Assembly: GCF_910589745.1 (NCBI RefSeq)
Contig: NZ_OU342399.1
Span: 1,178,001 to 1,242,000, forward strand
DNA length: 64,000 nt
DNA from: Candidatus Arcticimaribacter forsetii
GTDB lineage: Bacteria; Bacteroidota; Bacteroidia; Flavobacteriales; Flavobacteriaceae
Direction: 5' to 3'
Shown: piece after piece, positions 3,825-11,585 of the stretch
Layout of the letters: the number at the start of each line of letters is the position of its first letter
How positions within the stretch are numbered: position 1 is the first letter of the stretch
The notes under the pieces: model-generated
What the model was told of the DNA's origin: nothing
What the model saw: only the letters and a program-made list of their open reading frames with translations
The model's database searches: none
Program-made: the position numbers and the translations under genes

Positions 3825-4421
3825 CTACTTCTTTCTTTGTTCCAAAGCAGCAACAATATCGTCTAATTTGAATCCTTTTGCTTGCAATAAAATTAGATAG
3901 TGAAACAACAAATCTGCACTTTCATATAGAAATAATTCATCATTAGAGTCTAAGGCTTCAATTACAGTTTCAACAGCCTCCTCACCCACTTTTTGAGCTA
4001 TTTTATTGATTCCTTTATCAAATAATGAAGCTACATAACTGGAGTCTTTATCAGCGCTTTTACGCTCAGTAATGGTTTGTTCTAACTCAGATAGAAAACC
4101 ATAGCTGGTTGTATTTTTATCATTCCAACAGGTGTCAGAACCTGTATGGCAGGTAGGACCCACCGGATTTACCTGAAACAATAAAGTATCTTGATCACAA
4201 TCAAGCGAATAGCTCACCAATTTGAGGAAATTACCACTTTCTTCACCCTTCGTCCATAAGCGATTTTTAGTACGACTATAAAAAGTTACTTTCCCTGTAG
4301 TTTGAGTTTTTTCAAATGCTTCTTCGTTCATATAACCCAACATTAAAACAGTTTTTGTTTTTGCATCTTGAATTATTGCAGGAACTAGTCCGTCTGAATT
4401 CTTATTAAAATCTATTTTCAT
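3825..4421 (-). CDS. hisIE: Bifunctional phosphoribosyl-AMP cyclohydrolase / phosphoribosyl-ATP pyrophosphatase
   Basis: A 198-residue fusion that carries out steps 2 and 3 of histidine synthesis. The N-terminal HisI part has VLMLGYMNEEAFEKT, VTFYSRTKNRLWTKGEESGN and CDQDTLLFQVNPVGPTCHTGSDTCW, which contain the zinc and magnesium ligands. The HisE part (from about residue 110) has KIAQKVGEEAVETVIEAL and the ESADLLFHYLILL helix. It is the last his gene, 8 bases downstream of hisF. Confidence 0.97.
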   Translation of the reverse strand: MKIDFNKNSDGLVPAIIQDAKTKTVLMLGYMNEEAFEKTQTTGKVTFYSRTKNRLWTKGEESGNFLKLVSYSLDCDQDTLLFQVNPVGPTCHTGSDTCWNDKNTTSYGFLSELEQTITERKSADKDSSYVASLFDKGINKIAQKVGEEAVETVIEALDSNDELFLYESADLLFHYLILLQAKGFKLDDIVAALEQRKK

Positions 4422-4429
4422 AAGCTTAT

Positions 4430-5185
4430 TTATAATCTTACAGCAATGTGCTGCTTCTTGAGTTCTTTTTTTAGTTCTGGTACTGCTACTTCTCCAAAAT
4501 GAAAAATACTAGCTGCGAGTGCTGCATCAGCTTTTCCGTTATTAAAAGTATCTATAAAATGTTTAGTATTCCCGGCGCCACCAGAAGCTATAAGTGGAAT
4601 ATTTACTTCTTTCGATATTCGAGCAAGGGCCTCATTTGCAAATCCATCTTTAGTGCCATCGTTGTCCATTGAAGTAAATAAAATTTCCCCAGCTCCTCTT
4701 TGCTCCACTTCTATTGCCCAATCAAAAAGATCAATTTCCGTTGGGACTTTCCCACCCACTAAATGAACTTTCCAATGGCCATTTACTTGTTTTGCATCTA
4801 TAGCCACCACGATACACTGGCTTCCAAATTTAGAGGATAATTCGTTGATTAAATCTGGACGCTTAACGGCTGCTGAATTTATAGACACTTTGTCTGCTCC
4901 ATTTTTTAATAATACTTCTACATCTTCAATGGAACTGATTCCCCCTCCTACTGTAAAAGGTATATCAATAGCCTGTGCTACTTTTTGAACTAAATCGGCT
5001 AATGTTTTTCTTTTCTGTTCAGTGGCAGAAATATCTAAAAAAACAAGTTCATCAGCATTTTGATCCGCGTATTTTTTTGCTAATTCAACTGGATCTCCAG
5101 CGTCTATAAGGTTAACAAAATTAACACCTTTGACTGTTCTACCGTCTTTTACATCTAAACACGGAATGATACGTTTGGTTAACAT
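4430..5185 (-). CDS. hisF: Imidazole glycerol phosphate synthase cyclase subunit
   Basis: A 251-residue TIM barrel that takes ammonia from HisH and converts PRFAR to imidazole glycerol phosphate and AICAR. The start [23 protein letters not shown] holds the catalytic Asp11. [28 protein letters not shown] and [12 protein letters not shown] are the two phosphate-binding half-barrel motifs, and the second catalytic Asp lies in [12 protein letters not shown]. The start codon follows the DinB-like gene's stop with a 1-base gap. Confidence 0.97.
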
Positions 5186-5186
5186 C

Positions 5187-5696
5187 CTAGTTGTTTTTTA
5201 TTGTTAAATCTTGACCAGAATAAAAACCAAGATCTTCGTTTGTTAATACTTTTATCCAAAATGCTATTTGACCTGTATGATATGAAAAATGTTCCACAGC
5301 ATGTAAGGTAACTCCTATTCCGGAAAGTTCGAACCCTTGAACCGTTCGAATTCGTTCAAAATCCTCAGAAGTAGTTTCATTAATAACAGCCTGAGATTTT
5401 GAAACAGTATTGGAAAGCATTGATAACAGTTCTTTTTTATTTGATGTTCCAGTAGCTGAAAACTCAAGTTCTCGTTCTCTTTGATCTACGGTGTTTCCCA
5501 GAGAACTAATGATATATTGAGTCATGTTTCCACAGGAATGTAACAACTGATTCCCTAAGGCCATGCCGTTCTCTGTAGGTCGTTTCCAAAGAAATTCGTC
5601 AGTTACTTTTGAAAAAGCAATATTTATCATTCGGAGACTCTCAGAGAGTCTGTAGATTGCGTTTCGTTTGAATTCATTTAAAATTATTTCATTCAT
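5187..5696 (-). CDS. DinB-like four-helix protein inside the his operon
   Basis: A 169-residue protein of the DinB/YfiT-like fold. The expected metal-binding histidines are present: LLHSCGN around residue 53 and the pair in [14 protein letters not shown] near residues 130-143. The family includes thiol-dependent transferases (mycothiol or bacillithiol dependent) and many members with no known job. Its ATG overlaps the hisA stop by 4 bases and hisF starts 1 base after its stop, so it is translationally woven into the his operon. No histidine-pathway reaction is known for this family, so its role here is open. Confidence 0.85.
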
Positions 5697-6418
5697 GACT
5701 GCAAGATAAATTTTTCAAGCTCTTTCAATGAAATTCTATTTTCATAGATGGCTTTCCCTATTATAGTTCCTTCACATCCTAATTGTTTTAATTTAGGCAG
5801 TTCATCAAATTCAGAAATACCACCAGATGCTATTAATTTGATACCCGGTTGTTGTTCTAATAAATTTTGATAAACCTCAAAAGAAGGACCTGCTAACATA
5901 CCATCTTTACTTATGTCTGTACAAATAACATAGGCAATTCCTTTTTTTTGGTAGTCGTTTACAAAATCAACCAAACGATGCTCTGAAGTTTCAAGCCATC
6001 CGTTAGTGGCAATTCGATCACCTTGAACATCTGCTCCTAAAATAATTTTATCTTGCCCATAGGCTGAAATCCAACGTTCAAATAATTCAGGTTCCTTAAC
6101 CGCGATACTACCTCCGGTAATTTGATTTGCACCACAGTCAAAAGCGATTTTCAAATCTTCATCAGACTTTAACCCACCTCCAAAATCAATTTTAAGACTC
6201 GTTTTAGAGGCTATTTCCTCTAAAACCTTATGATTTACTATGTGTTTAGACTTAGCTCCGTCAAGATCAACTAAATGTAAATACTCGATTCCATGAGCTT
6301 CAAATTCTTTAGCAACCTCAATTGGATGTTCATTATAGGTTTTTTGGGTAGCGTAATCTCCTTTTGATAGTCGAACACACTTTCCATCTATTAAATCTAT
6401 TGCGGGTATAATTCTCAT
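5693..6418 (-). CDS. hisA: ProFAR isomerase (5-ProFAR to PRFAR)
   Basis: A 241-residue TIM barrel performing the Amadori rearrangement of ProFAR. The start [22 protein letters not shown] supplies the N-terminal catalytic Asp8. [28 protein letters not shown] and [15 protein letters not shown] are the duplicated phosphate sites, and [14 protein letters not shown] carries the second catalytic Asp. It is distinguished from HisF by the IPAID start and the TDISKDG motif. The hisH stop lies 1 base upstream. Confidence 0.97.
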
Positions 6419-6419
6419 A

Positions 6420-7001
6420 TTAAAGTTCTAAAAAATTAGTTAGAATTTTACTTCCTGCTTTACTACTCTTCTCAGGATGAAATTGTACTCCATAGAAATT
6501 ATCTTTTTGTAAAGCAGAACTATAAGCAATTCCGTAATTAGTTTGAGCGATTGTATGTTTACATAAAGCCGCATAGAAACTATGAACAGAATACATATAG
6601 ATTCCTGAATCAAGGTTATTAAATAAAGGAGAATTCAACTCTTCTAAAGTATTCCAACCCATTTGGGGAACTTTTAAATCCGAATTGAAACGTTTTACTG
6701 AAACGTCAAAAATATTCAATCCCTGAGTAGATCCCTCTTCAGTTTTAGAACACATGAGTTGCATTCCAAGACAAATCCCTAGGACCGGATTTTTAAGATT
6801 CGGAATAATAATATCCAAACCAGATTCTTTTAATTTCTGCATGGCACTACTCGCCTCACCAACTCCTGGAAATATAACTTTATCTGCTTGCTTTATTTCT
6901 TCTGGATTGGAGCTTAAAACACCTTCAACACCCAAACGTTCTAGAGCAAACTGAAGACTTTTAATGTTTCCAGCACCATAATCTATAAGAACTACTTTCA
7001 T
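6420..7001 (-). CDS. hisH: Imidazole glycerol phosphate synthase glutaminase subunit
   Basis: A 193-residue class I glutamine amidotransferase that supplies ammonia to His[18 protein letters not shown] is the usual start, [18 protein letters not shown] near residue 72 holds the nucleophilic cysteine, and [14 protein letters not shown] near the C-terminus holds the His and Glu of the catalytic triad. It sits 15 bases after hisB, the widest internal gap in the operon. Confidence 0.97.
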
Positions 7002-7016
7002 TTTTTTTATTTAATC

Positions 7017-8147
7017 TTAGAGACTTCCTTTTGTACTGGGTAAAATCATTTTATTAGGATCTCGCTTCACAGCTACTTTAATGGCCTTGGCAAATACTTT
7101 AAAAATGGACTCTATCTTGTGGTGTTCATTTTCACCTTCAGCTTTTATATTTAAATTGGCTTTAGCACCGTCTGTGAATGATTTGAAAAAGTGAAAAAAC
7201 ATTTCTGTTGGCATCTTGCCAATCATTTCACGCTTAAATTCAGCATCCCAAACCAGCCAGTTTCTTCCACCAAAATCAATTGATGCTTGAGCGAGACAAT
7301 CGTCCATTGGCAAACAAAATCCATAACGTTCTATTCCAAGTTTATTCCCTAAAGCCTCTGCAAAAGCTTCTCCTAGGACAATAGCTGTATCTTCAATCGT
7401 ATGGTGCTCATCTACCTCTAAATCCCCTTTTACCGTCAGATTTAAGTCCATGTTACCGTGTCGAGCAATTTGATCTAACATATGATCAAAAAAGGCAATC
7501 CCAGTATCGATTGTACTCTTCCCAGTTCCATCTAGATTGAGTTCTAATTTAATATCGGTTTCGTTGGTGGTTCTTTTCTGAATTACAATACGTTGCTCTA
7601 ATTTTAAAAACTCATAAATACGCTTCCATTCAGTTGTTTTAAGGGCAATTGTTGAACTAAAGTCTGTCCCTGATACTTCGTTAGATCCAAGTTCTTCATC
7701 GTTTGCGATGAATATTCCTTTTGCTTTTAAGTTGAAGGCGAGCTCTATATCGGTTATGCGATCTCCAATTACAAAAGAGTTTTTAAGATCATATATATCT
7801 TCATTTAAATAAGGAGTTAACATTCCTGTCCTAGGTTTGCGTGTAGGAGCATTGTCTTCTGGAAGACTTTTATCAATCAGAATCTCATCAAATTTTACTC
7901 CCTCATTCTCGAACGTTTTTAAAAGAAAATTGTGTGTAGGCCAGAAAGTATCTTCTGGAAAGGAACTAGTTCCAAGACCATCTTGGTTGGTTACCATAAC
8001 TAATTCGTAGTCTAACTCGGTTGCTATTTTTCTTAAATAAGTAAAAACTTCCGGGTAAAATTCTAATTTTTCAATAGCATCCAACTGATAATCTGCTGGT
8101 TCCAGGGCTAAAGTTCCATCACGGTCTATAAAGAGTACTTTTTTCAT
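7017..8147 (-). CDS. hisB: Bifunctional histidinol-phosphatase / imidazoleglycerol-phosphate dehydratase
   Basis: A 376-residue fusion. The N-terminal HAD phosphatase has the nucleophile motif [10 protein letters not shown] (residues 8-17), the [10 protein letters not shown] motif II and [15 protein letters not shown] motif IV. The C-terminal dehydratase (from about residue 185) has [29 protein letters not shown] and a HHKIESIFK block, which carry the manganese-binding histidines. The fused form is also seen in Enterobacteria and many Bacteroidetes. The downstream hisH and upstream hisC are close and codirectional. Confidence 0.97.
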
Positions 8148-8157
8148 ACTAATATTT

Positions 8158-9210
8158 TTATTGATCCATTGCTTTTAAAGCGGTAATCAAAGCTGTATTT
8201 TCAATTTCTGTCCCTATTGTTATTCTGAGCGTATTCTCGCAAGAAATTTGTTTCGACGGGTTGCGAACTACAATTCCTTTTTGAATTAATTGATTGTATC
8301 GAAGCGAACTATCGTCTACACGGATTAAAATAAAATTTGCATCGGAAGGGAATATTTTTTTTACAAAACTTAAATCTTCCAAAGCTTTTATTAAGGTTTG
8401 TTTATACCCAATTAACAAACGTACTTCTTGAGCTACCTGACCCGCTTGATCTAAACGATCCATGACTGCCTGTTGAGAAAGAACATTAAGGTTGTAAGGA
8501 GCTTTTATTGTATTTAAAACATCTATTATTTCATCTTTAGCAAATGCCATTCCTACTCGTGCCCCTGCCAGACCCTGAGCTTTAGAAAAAGTTTGTAGCA
8601 CCACAATATTTTCATATTGATCAAGCCAATCAATAGCAGTTTCTCCGGGTGAAAACTCAGCATAGGCTTCGTCTATAATAACAAGACCAGGAAAATTTTT
8701 AGCGATGTGCTCTAAATCACTCAAAGGAAAGCGGTTTGCAGTCGGATTGTTTGGTGTAGGGATGAAAATCATTTTAGTCTTGTCGGACGCACGAGCAAGT
8801 ATTCTGTCAACATCCAGTTGAAATGCATCAATAAGCGGAACTTCTACTACATGAACACCGTTTAAATTTGCAGAAACTTGATACATTCCAAAAGTTGGGG
8901 GAACAATCATAATTTCTTCCTCTTTAGGTTCACAAAAGGCAACCATTAAAAGACTAATCAATTCGTCACTCCCATTGGCTAGAAATAAAGATGAACTCGA
9001 AACTCCTTTGATAGCTGCAAGACGATTCTTTAATTCTGTTTGAAAAGGATCCGGATAGCGATTTAATCCCGTTTCAAATGGATTTTCGTTTGCATCTAAC
9101 AAAATCATTTTACGATCAGAACCAACAAATTCTTGACGAGCTGACTTATAGGATTTCAAATCCTTTATTACAGGTCGTACTAGTTTGTTTATGTCAATCC
9201 TTCTATTCAT
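8158..9210 (-). CDS. hisC: Histidinol-phosphate aminotransferase
   Basis: A 350-residue PLP-dependent class I/II aminotransferase that converts imidazole acetol phosphate to histidinol phosphate. Visible landmarks are [18 protein letters not shown] near the N-terminus, [38 protein letters not shown], and [17 protein letters not shown], where the lysine forms the Schiff base. Its start overlaps the hisD end by 8 bases, so the two are translationally coupled. Confidence 0.97.
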
Positions 9211-10492
9211 CTTTTAAATCGTTTAAACGTAAGGTGACCGCATTTTTATGTGCCTGAAGCCCTTCTGATTCAGCCATAAGCTCTATAGCTGGTCCAATGT
9301 TTTGAATTCCTTTACTCGATATTTTCTGAAAAGTCATTTGTTTTAAATAACTATCTAAATTAACACCACTGTATTGTTTTGCGTAGCCATTTGTGGGTAA
9401 GGTATGATTGGTTCCAGAAGCATAGTCTCCGGCACTTTCTGGAGTATAATTACCTATAAAAACTGAACCTGCATTTGTAATTTGATCAATGTAGAGTTGT
9501 TCCTCTTTCACACAAATAATATAATGCTCAGGACCGTATTGATTGATAAAGTCTATGGATTCTTCATTAGTTTCGAAAAATATCATTCTAGAATTATCCA
9601 TTGCTTTTTCAGCAATTTCTTTTCTTGGAAGTAAATTCAATTGAATTTCAATTTCTTGTTTAACAAGTTCCAACATTGGAGCGTAGGTTGTTACTAAAAT
9701 CACCTGACTGTCAGCTCCGTGTTCCGCCTGTGAAAGTAAATCTGATGCCACATATGCTGGATTTGCCGTCTCATCAGCTACAACTAACAATTCACTTGGT
9801 CCAGCAGGCATATCTATTGAAACCTGATATTGTGTAGCAATTTGTTTAGCAACTGTTACGTACTGATTTCCAGGCCCGAATATCTTATATACTTTTGGAA
9901 CAGTTTCCGTTCCAAAAGTCATTGCTGCAATTGCCTGAATTCCTCCTAGTTTAAAAATCTGGCTCAATCCACATAACTTAGCAGTATATAAAATTACATC
10001 GGGAATTGCTCCATTTTGATTTGGAGGGGTACACAATACAATTTCTTTACAACCTGCGATTTGAGCCGGTATTGCGAGCATTAATAAGGTAGAAAACAAA
10101 GGTGCTGAACCTCCAGGAATATATAAACCCACTTTTTCAATCGGTCTTTTTTCTTGCCAACACAAAACTCCCGGCTGTGTTTCAATTGAAACAGAAGGTG
10201 TTTTTTGTGCTTTATGAAACGCTTCTATATTACTTTTCGCTAATTGAATGGCTTCTTTTAATTTCTTCGAAACTTTATTTTCTGCTTCTAAAAAGTCTGC
10301 TTCAGTTACACTGAAAGAATCTAAAGATACCCCATCAAACTTTTGAGTATATGCTTTCAAAGCTTCATCACCTTTGGATTGAACCTCAGAAAAAACATCC
10401 TCAACAACAGGTTCTAAATCTTTAAAACTAGCTGTAGGACGGCTCAATATTGAATTCCAAACCAACGGTTTAGGTTGAATAAACTGCTTCAT
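9203..10492 (-). CDS. hisD: Histidinol dehydrogenase
   Basis: A 429-residue zinc enzyme that oxidises histidinol to histidine in two NAD-dependent steps. VGLYIPGGSAPLFSTLLMLAIPA, KIFGPGNQYVTVAKQIA and IDMPAGPSELLVVADETANP are the family signature regions. LLSQAEHGADSQVILVT holds the Gln/His zinc ligands, and the GPEHYI segment carries the catalytic Glu-His pair. Its ATG overlaps the last base of hisG by 1 nucleotide. Confidence 0.97.
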   Translation of the reverse strand: MKQFIQPKPLVWNSILSRPTASFKDLEPVVEDVFSEVQSKGDEALKAYTQKFDGVSLDSFSVTEADFLEAENKVSKKLKEAIQLAKSNIEAFHKAQKTPSVSIETQPGVLCWQEKRPIEKVGLYIPGGSAPLFSTLLMLAIPAQIAGCKEIVLCTPPNQNGAIPDVILYTAKLCGLSQIFKLGGIQAIAAMTFGTETVPKVYKIFGPGNQYVTVAKQIATQYQVSIDMPAGPSELLVVADETANPAYVASDLLSQAEHGADSQVILVTTYAPMLELVKQEIEIQLNLLPRKEIAEKAMDNSRMIFFETNEESIDFINQYGPEHYIICVKEEQLYIDQITNAGSVFIGNYTPESAGDYASGTNHTLPTNGYAKQYSGVNLDSYLKQMTFQKISSKGIQNIGPAIELMAESEGLQAHKNAVTLRLNDLKDE

Positions 10493-11343
10493 TAACGCAC
10501 CATTTTTTCAATTGGACATACCAAAATATCTTCAGCACCTGCTGCTTTTAACTGATCAATAACCTCCCAAAAATCACCTGAATTTATAACCGAATGAATT
10601 GAACTCCACCCTTCTTGTGCTAAAGGCAATACTGTAGGACTCTTCAGAACAGGTAAAATTTTTGAAACTGAATCAATTTGTTCATTAGGAACGTTTAACA
10701 AGATATAGCGGGATTGTTTTGCTCGCAGAACTGCTTGGATTCTAAACTGAATCTTTTCAATTAATAAAATTTGCTCTTCGTTCAAATTAGGAGCCTGTAC
10801 TAAAACAGCTTCCGACGTTAATATCTCAATTACTTCTTTTAAGTTGTTCTTAAATAAAGTGCTACCACTTGAAACAATGTCACAAATTGCATCTGCAAGA
10901 CCGATATTAGGAGCAATTTCTACAGAGCCACTAATCACGTGAATATCTGCCTCTACACCTTTTTCTTTAAGAAATTGATTGACCGTATTTGGATAGGAAG
11001 TTGCTATTTTCTTTCCTGCTAAGTCTGAAACTCCAGAAAAAGAATTCTCCTTGGGAATTGCAATTGAAACTTTACACTTAGAAAATCCTAAAGATTCTAT
11101 AACCTCCAGATCTGTCCCCTTTTCTACCAAAAGATTACTTCCAACAATGGCAAGATCTACCACGCCGTCTCTAAGATATTGAGGGATGTCTCCATTTCTC
11201 AAAAAGAAAACCTCTAAAGGAAAATTCCTTGCTTTTGCTTTAAGTTGGTCTTTCCCATTATCAACAGTTATACCGCAGCTTTTTAATAAAGCTAAAGAAT
11301 CTGTATTTAATCTACCAGATTTTTGAATTGCTATTCTAATCAT
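10492..11343 (-). CDS. hisG: ATP phosphoribosyltransferase, long form
   Basis: A 283-residue protein catalysing the first, committed step of histidine synthesis. It starts MIRIAIQKSGRLNTDSLALLKSCG and has GSNLLVEKGTDLEVIESLGFSKCKVSIAIP in the periplasmic-binding-like catalytic domain, plus ADAICDIVSSGSTLFKNNLKEVI for PRPP binding. Residues after about 210 form the ACT-like regulatory domain of the long form, so it should be feedback-inhibited by histidine and not need HisZ. It is the first structural gene after the attenuator, whose U-run ends about 10 bases before this ATG. Confidence 0.97.
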   Translation of the reverse strand: MIRIAIQKSGRLNTDSLALLKSCGITVDNGKDQLKAKARNFPLEVFFLRNGDIPQYLRDGVVDLAIVGSNLLVEKGTDLEVIESLGFSKCKVSIAIPKENSFSGVSDLAGKKIATSYPNTVNQFLKEKGVEADIHVISGSVEIAPNIGLADAICDIVSSGSTLFKNNLKEVIEILTSEAVLVQAPNLNEEQILLIEKIQFRIQAVLRAKQSRYILLNVPNEQIDSVSKILPVLKSPTVLPLAQEGWSSIHSVINSGDFWEVIDQLKAAGAEDILVCPIEKMVR

Positions 11344-11350
11344 ATTTTTA

Positions 11351-11385
11351 AAATAAAAAAACCCGCTTGAATATTCAAACGGGTT
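11351..11385 (-). terminator. hisG: Attenuator terminator of the his operon
   Basis: On the minus strand AACCCGTTTGAA and TTCAAGCGGGTT form an almost perfect palindromic stem (11360-11385, one G-U pair) followed at once by a run of U (11354-11360). It sits between the His-rich leader peptide and hisG, 8-40 bases upstream of the hisG ATG. The 5' arm can instead pair with leader sequence at 11419-11425, so termination is conditional. Confidence 0.85.
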
Positions 11386-11410
11386 CTATGAGTTGTATAT
11401 ACACCAACCT

Positions 11411-11467
11411 TTAGATCTCGCTTGAGTCTGAAGTATGATGGTGGGTATGTAAATTTGTTTTAATCAT
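11411..11467 (-). CDS. hisL: his operon leader peptide
   Basis: An 18-codon reading frame from the ATG at 11467 to the TAA at 11411, encoding MIKTNLHTHHHTSDSSEI. Four of five consecutive residues at positions 7-11 are histidine (H-T-H-H-H). It is directly followed by the attenuator hairpin and hisG, the classic arrangement for transcription attenuation by charged tRNA-His. The -7 promoter box ends only 7 bases before the ATG, so the transcript may be leaderless. The antiterminator segment TCAAGCG lies within codons 14-16, just beyond the His codons. Confidence 0.85.
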   Translation of the reverse strand: MIKTNLHTHHHTSDSSEI

Positions 11468-11474
11468 TAAAGTG

Positions 11475-11482
11475 CAAATATA
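11475..11482 (-). promoter_or_regulatory. Candidate -7 box of the his operon promoter
   Basis: The minus strand reads TATATTTG, matching TAnnTTTG, immediately upstream of the leader peptide ATG with 7 bases between. This would place the transcription start at or within a few bases of the start codon. No obvious -33 TTG is present. Confidence 0.5.
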
Positions 11483-11557: not shown

Positions 11558-11585
11558 AAACCCAAACCTGAGGAGGTTTGGGTTT
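11558..11585 (-). terminator. Strong terminator after the lpx-efp-sucD-fabG-prohibitin run
   Basis: Perfect 12-bp inverted repeat (AAACCCAAACCT and its complement) with a 4-base loop, 33 bases past the prohibitin stop codon. On the minus strand it is followed by a T-rich stretch. It separates this operon from the his promoter. Confidence 0.85.

Follow-up and report, generated by a model that had tools for sequence, protein, structure and literature searches.

Attenuation in response to amino acid supply is a textbook mechanism, and most of what is known of it comes from Proteobacteria. The his attenuator of Escherichia coli and Salmonella (hisL; Rfam His_leader) encodes a peptide with a run of seven His and has, ahead of hisG, an antiterminator and an intrinsic terminator that exclude each other, while E. 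coli trpL follows a three-way logic in which RNA segments pair as 1:2, 2:3 and 3:4. Some attenuators have reportedly been predicted in Bacteroidetes as well, by Vitreschak et al. in 2004 and by Lopatovskaya et al. in 2010, the second of which PMC4833913 cites. In the excerpt of a Flavobacterium psychrophilum report used here, one sentence mentions "strong clues" for leader-peptide attenuation upstream of amino acid biosynthesis operons (PMC9723704), and an excerpt of a further paper cites Canestrari et al. 2020 for poly-Cys leaderless small ORFs (sORFs) in mycobacteria (PMC9094748). Our literature search found no paper linking leaderless leader peptides to Bacteroidota, its one match dealing with nisin.

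Here we describe the his leader of Candidatus Arcticimaribacter forsetii, located within a 64-kb window (the whole stretch of DNA that was analyzed). We estimate a probability of about 0.92 that this locus is a ribosome-mediated transcription attenuator sensing charged His-tRNA, and the proposed mechanism is the classical one of hisL and trpL. Like hisL, it combines a His-codon peptide with mutually exclusive antiterminator and terminator structures before hisG; unlike hisL, it has four His, fewer segments (approximately 130 nt from promoter box to U-run), an antiterminator arm within the end of the ORF and a predicted near-leaderless start, and it gives no match to the Rfam His_leader covariance model. 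With respect to trpL, the His-codon region corresponds to segment 1, an element that we call A to segment 2, and elements B and C to segments 3 and 4, whereas in the flavobacterial leader segment 2 occupies the final part of the reading frame and nearly duplicates segment 4. As in the leaderless regulatory sORFs of Actinobacteria, a leader ORF at or near the 5' end of the RNA would sense an amino acid, in this case in another phylum and for another amino acid. The F. psychrophilum report concerns the same bacterial family, and relative to its excerpted text the sequence anatomy, the A/B/C logic, the near-leaderless start and the spread of the element are given here only. The suggestion of the earlier note on this DNA that such an attenuator might be exceptional for Flavobacteriia was only partly right, the mechanism being classical and attenuation having already been noted in one Flavobacterium; what is new is an uncatalogued family-wide element with a predicted near-leaderless start.

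All features of the leader lie on the minus strand, in a layout that agrees to the base with the order given in the earlier note (box, seven bases, 18-codon HTHHH peptide, stop, intrinsic terminator, hisG). A sigma-A -7 box, TATATTTG (11475 to 11482), matches the Bacteroidota consensus TAnnTTTG exactly and is separated by a 7-nt spacer, CACTTTA, from the leader ATG at 11467; from this spacing we infer a transcription start at 11469 to 11470 and a 5' untranslated region (UTR) of 2 to 3 nt. The leader ORF (11411 to 11467; TAA at 11413 to 11411) encodes MIKTNLHTHHHTSDSSEI, in which His occupies codons 7, 9, 10 and 11, so that the regulatory codons CAT ACC CAC CAT CAT (11435 to 11449) read HTHHH, with four His in five. 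Element A, TCAAGCG (11419 to 11425, as previously noted), is an antiterminator arm within the end of the ORF that copies the 3' arm of the terminator, and it is separated from the stop codon by the five bases AGATC. Past the stop codon follows GGTTGGTGT (11401 to 11409), the partner of the His-codon region, and 27 nt separate the end of the ORF from element B, CCCGTTTGA (11375 to 11383), which is both the 5' arm of the terminator and the partner of A. An ATAT loop leads to element C, TCAAGCGGG (11370 to 11362), the 3' arm, which together with a run of eight T (11361 to 11354) makes up the stretch 11354 to 11370. An intrinsic terminator (11383 to 11354) thus lies between the leader ORF and the first structural gene, hisG (10492 to 11343; ATG at 11343; Pfam HisG and HisG_C), which starts 10 nt past the U-run.

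The remaining his operon (3825 to 10492, minus strand) consists of hisD, hisC, a bifunctional hisB, hisH, hisA, a DUF1572/DinB-like ORF, hisF and hisIE, where hisIE and DUF1572 were named by domain search and the others from reading the translations. The DUF1572/DinB-like protein is encoded between hisA and hisF (5187 to 5696, minus strand), and the beginning of its frame overlaps the 3' end of hisA. On the other side, a perfect 12-bp inverted repeat (11558 to 11585, minus strand) forms the terminator of an upstream SPFH-domain gene, and the his leader is therefore probably its own transcription unit. Across the window, the his leader is the sole ATG-initiated ORF of 8 to 30 amino acids with at least four His in five residues, and 20 simulated windows contained one such ORF in total.

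One alternative concerns the 5' end: the attenuator could be real and yet be transcribed from a promoter farther upstream, with a longer 5' UTR. Elsewhere in the phylum the box indeed lies 16 to 36 nt upstream, namely at Flavobacterium, Kordia and Chryseobacterium-like loci that keep the attenuator, and few mRNAs in Bacteroidota are leaderless: approximately 5.5% in F. psychrophilum, according to the excerpted text (PMC9723704), with 3.7% of 5' UTRs under 10 nt in Bacteroides thetaiotaomicron (PMC7366714) and 87% of leaders over 10 nt in a further study (PMC6847099). We nevertheless regard a distant promoter as unlikely for the window species, as the 91 nt from the terminator of the upstream gene to the leader ATG contain no exact TAnnTTTG other than TATATTTG, and the best TAnnTTTG-like box falls 3 to 8 nt before the start codon in 84 of 156 distinct leaders, compared to 26 of 855 random placements. 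Transcription starts in Flavobacterium johnsoniae lie 4 to 5 nt past the box (PMC6847099), and the F. psychrophilum excerpt places the box at -12 to -5 (PMC9723704). The spacing of 4 to 8 nt found in over half of the loci would imply a 5' UTR of roughly 0 to 4 nt, with 2 to 3 nt predicted for the window species and 0 nt for clades with 4-nt spacing, some of them GTG-starting. Because other genera keep the attenuator with distant boxes, the predicted near-leaderless start is a feature of the clade and not a requirement; the earlier description of the leader as near-leaderless is backed by the conserved box-to-start spacing in the clade, with the start itself being predicted from the promoter box. 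At five loci upstream of hisG (L049, L047, L050, L060 and L064), the leader ORFs begin with GTG 4 nt past TATATTTG, and for these we predict fully leaderless RNAs that start with GUG.

The leader is conserved throughout the family. From two sources we gathered 110 loci of close hisG relatives, and a script parsed the His leader, element A and terminator in 107 of these (100 distinct sequences); the remaining three encode an identical type of peptide when read by eye. All 40 further hisG upstream regions of the family, picked from a list with their sequence unseen, have the leader as well. In a wider parse of 189 loci, 17 were not parsed automatically, mostly very distant ones, and element A escaped automatic detection at L099, L062, L059 and L129, which were read by eye or omitted. 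Essentially all relatives thus have an ORF rich in codons for the amino acid made by its own operon, here His.

A covariance model built from 44 family leaders matches 129 of 149 family genomes, including every genome with hisG (123/123, E ≤ 2.1e-5). The model gave no match in 20 of the 26 hisG-negative genomes and weak matches only (E ≥ 2.6e-4) in five, whereas the remaining one (G027) has a strong match adjoining a truncated hisG start. In this last case (L295, G027:C11:14403-14521, minus strand), an intact-looking His leader is followed by only the first hisG codons, and the genome has no match to hisG; the attenuator is apparently a fossil that has outlasted the his operon. The matches away from hisG that we inspected (L294, L296 and L297) are terminator-like hairpins only, with no His leader. 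A separate observation concerns G349, a genome assigned to another family, in which contigs C76 and C57 carry two hisG genes, 89% and 65% identical to that of the window, probably reflecting a contaminated assembly or transfer.

Elements A and C both require element B, so that the A:B antiterminator and the B:C terminator exclude each other. Over 44 aligned family members, B:C is paired in 99.4% of cells, double changes included, and A:B in 95.7%, compared to 13 to 49% with slid partners; RNAalifold over the stretch from A to B returns the A:B helix as the sole consensus, and the inner hairpin between A and B, which varies in sequence, yields no consensus structure. Since B is almost invariant within the family, most changes in A are one-sided wobble changes (A/G or C/T), and nearly all of them preserve pairing (A/G opposite U; C/U opposite G). 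Matched changes are seen at L229 (A = TCAGGTG, B = CATCTGA) and at L097, where A, B and C are all altered together. Covariation of the loop base is modest in the family for the same reason (88 of 121 Watson-Crick versus 79.1 when shuffled, standard deviation 2.8), and the terminator-loop base adjacent to A is unpaired (C versus A) in the window species.

A stronger test comes from swapping arms across the phylum, where many other Bacteroidota have His-rich leaders with different terminator sequences; beyond the family these sequences are wholly different, and A tracks them. For 35 divergent leaders, the A:B duplex of each leader's own arms averages -14.7 kcal/mol compared to -9.6 kcal/mol for swapped arms (z = -9.3), and none of 5,000 permutations was as strong as the true pairing, a conservative result because many of the 35 leaders have a common CGTTTGA core that weakens the contrast. 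The contrast with shuffles at a single locus is modest (P = 0.05 in the window), and the case therefore rests on comparison. On this basis the proposal that TCAAGCG pairs with the 5' arm of the terminator and mimics its 3' arm holds up well, as do the His codons and both paired arms, the comparison with relatives having found the codons conserved and the arms conserved and covarying.

The sequence of element A also speaks to its role. A occurs as CTCAAACGAG, CTCAAGCGAGG and similar variants, and its reading frame varies, giving Ser-Asn-Glu (SNEL) in the clade of the window and Gln-Ala-Arg (AQAR) in most others, while at L004 and L107 the stop codon lies upstream of A. Because the core of A is read in differing frames, or past the stop, what is conserved in the C-terminal part is the RNA rather than the peptide, and A:B pairing is retained in approximately 96 to 100% of family members despite the shifting frame. 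At two loci upstream of hisG (L012 and L021), a CAG-to-TAG change puts the stop within element A, so that the peptide is shorter and the pairing is kept (G-U). These patterns make it very improbable that the terminator simply acts constitutively, as an attenuator or a boundary, next to an incidental His-rich ORF or one encoding a working peptide. A His-rich short ORF and a hairpin may arise separately, and the peptide is unannotated; against this, both the His codons and the A/B/C set are present at virtually every hisG of the family, and a working peptide is unlikely given that its C terminus switches frame over conserved RNA.

Control of the terminator by a T-box or ligand-binding riboswitch without translation, a reading suggested by the T-box control of his genes in some Gram-positive bacteria (PMC9413887), is more improbable still, as no Rfam family reached its gathering threshold in the 64-kb window (His_leader and T-box included), the low-scoring matches at the locus up to an E value of 5 mostly span the terminator and include neither His_leader nor T-box, and the leader lacks a long conserved 5' domain, the approximately 45 nt of transcript ahead of A being the ORF.

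The distances at the locus are in line with attenuation by a translating ribosome, whose footprint extends approximately 10 nt past the A-site codon. Element A begins mostly 8 to 15 nt past the last clustered His in the family (9 nt in the window, 14 nt in 71 of 121 loci) and lies 13 to 16 nt ahead of the end of the stop codon in most family loci. This geometry fits a ribosome that just frees A when awaiting His-tRNA and covers A when at the stop codon. When the RNA is folded from A onward, with the His-codon region occluded and before C is made, the A:B antiterminator forms in 118 of 118 loci (-16.3 kcal/mol in the window). Pairing between the His-codon region and the post-stop segment averages -11.45, compared to -6.67 for shuffled sequences, and is stronger than in the shuffles in 114 of 118 loci; this pairing encloses element A. 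Both proposals of the earlier note on these points, release and masking of A by the ribosome and pairing of the His-codon region past the stop, are supported by these distances and folds. Once the whole RNA is available, the terminator is the minimum-energy fold even with a stalled ribosome (-24.6 versus -16.3 kcal/mol), and the switch must therefore be kinetic, depending on co-transcriptional timing. Classical attenuators likewise depend on such timing.

Taken together, comparison of the leaders shows conserved His codons, terminator, A:B complementarity and ribosome geometry at the level of sequence, and the interpretation of the his leader as histidine attenuation is strongly supported; from it we infer stalling, kinetics and a histidine response as follows. 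Transcription would start 2 to 3 nt ahead of the leader AUG, and the ribosome would load at the extreme 5' end. With plentiful histidine, it would reach the stop and cover A, B:C would pair and the polymerase would terminate before hisG. If His-tRNA runs short, the ribosome would stall on HTHHH and leave A, 9 nt past the last His codon, free to pair with B via a long hairpin, so that C would be left unpartnered and the his operon would be transcribed. In a leader without a ribosome, the His-codon region would pair with the post-stop segment and hold A, favoring termination.

A second leader of this kind is predicted in the same genome. The 2.03-Mb genome contains 25 occurrences of the pattern TATATTTG-N(3-8)-ATG (12 for a reversed-pattern control), among them the his leader and one ahead of trpE. 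The latter (L211/L215; G000:C1:1661578-1661756, plus strand) consists of TATATTTG-ATCTA-ATG, the peptide MKRITNFTAWWNE followed by a stop, and a terminator (GGCTTGTC..GACAAGCC) before trpE, and would be a near-leaderless trp operon leader (WW) similar to that of his. Of 30 family loci, most have a Trp-rich leader (WW/WWW) ahead of trpE, and in nine the box spacing is 4 to 8 nt. A TCGTGA element, which lies upstream of the trp terminator in 23 of 25 loci and is located at or near the stop codon, can pair with TCACGA in the loop and 3' arm of the terminator, an antiterminator topology that differs from that of the his leader. Reading the region upstream of ilvD in this genome, we found no evident attenuator with branched-chain codons.

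We see somewhat better than even odds that Flavobacteriaceae, and probably much of Bacteroidota, regulate their his and trp operons through an uncatalogued class of compact attenuators, with leader peptides that many genera translate from RNAs that are leaderless or nearly so. In the his version of this class, the last part of the reading frame holds the antiterminator arm, which copies the 3' arm of the terminator. This provides a family-wide, fully resolved version of an attenuator in a phylum with few worked-out cis-regulatory RNAs and no Shine-Dalgarno sequences. The element is absent from Rfam and could become a ready-made histidine-responsive switch. It also predicts a regulatory use of leaderless initiation in a phylum whose mRNAs are seldom leaderless and, if true, ribosome loading at the 5' end without a Shine-Dalgarno sequence would tightly couple the ribosome to the polymerase.
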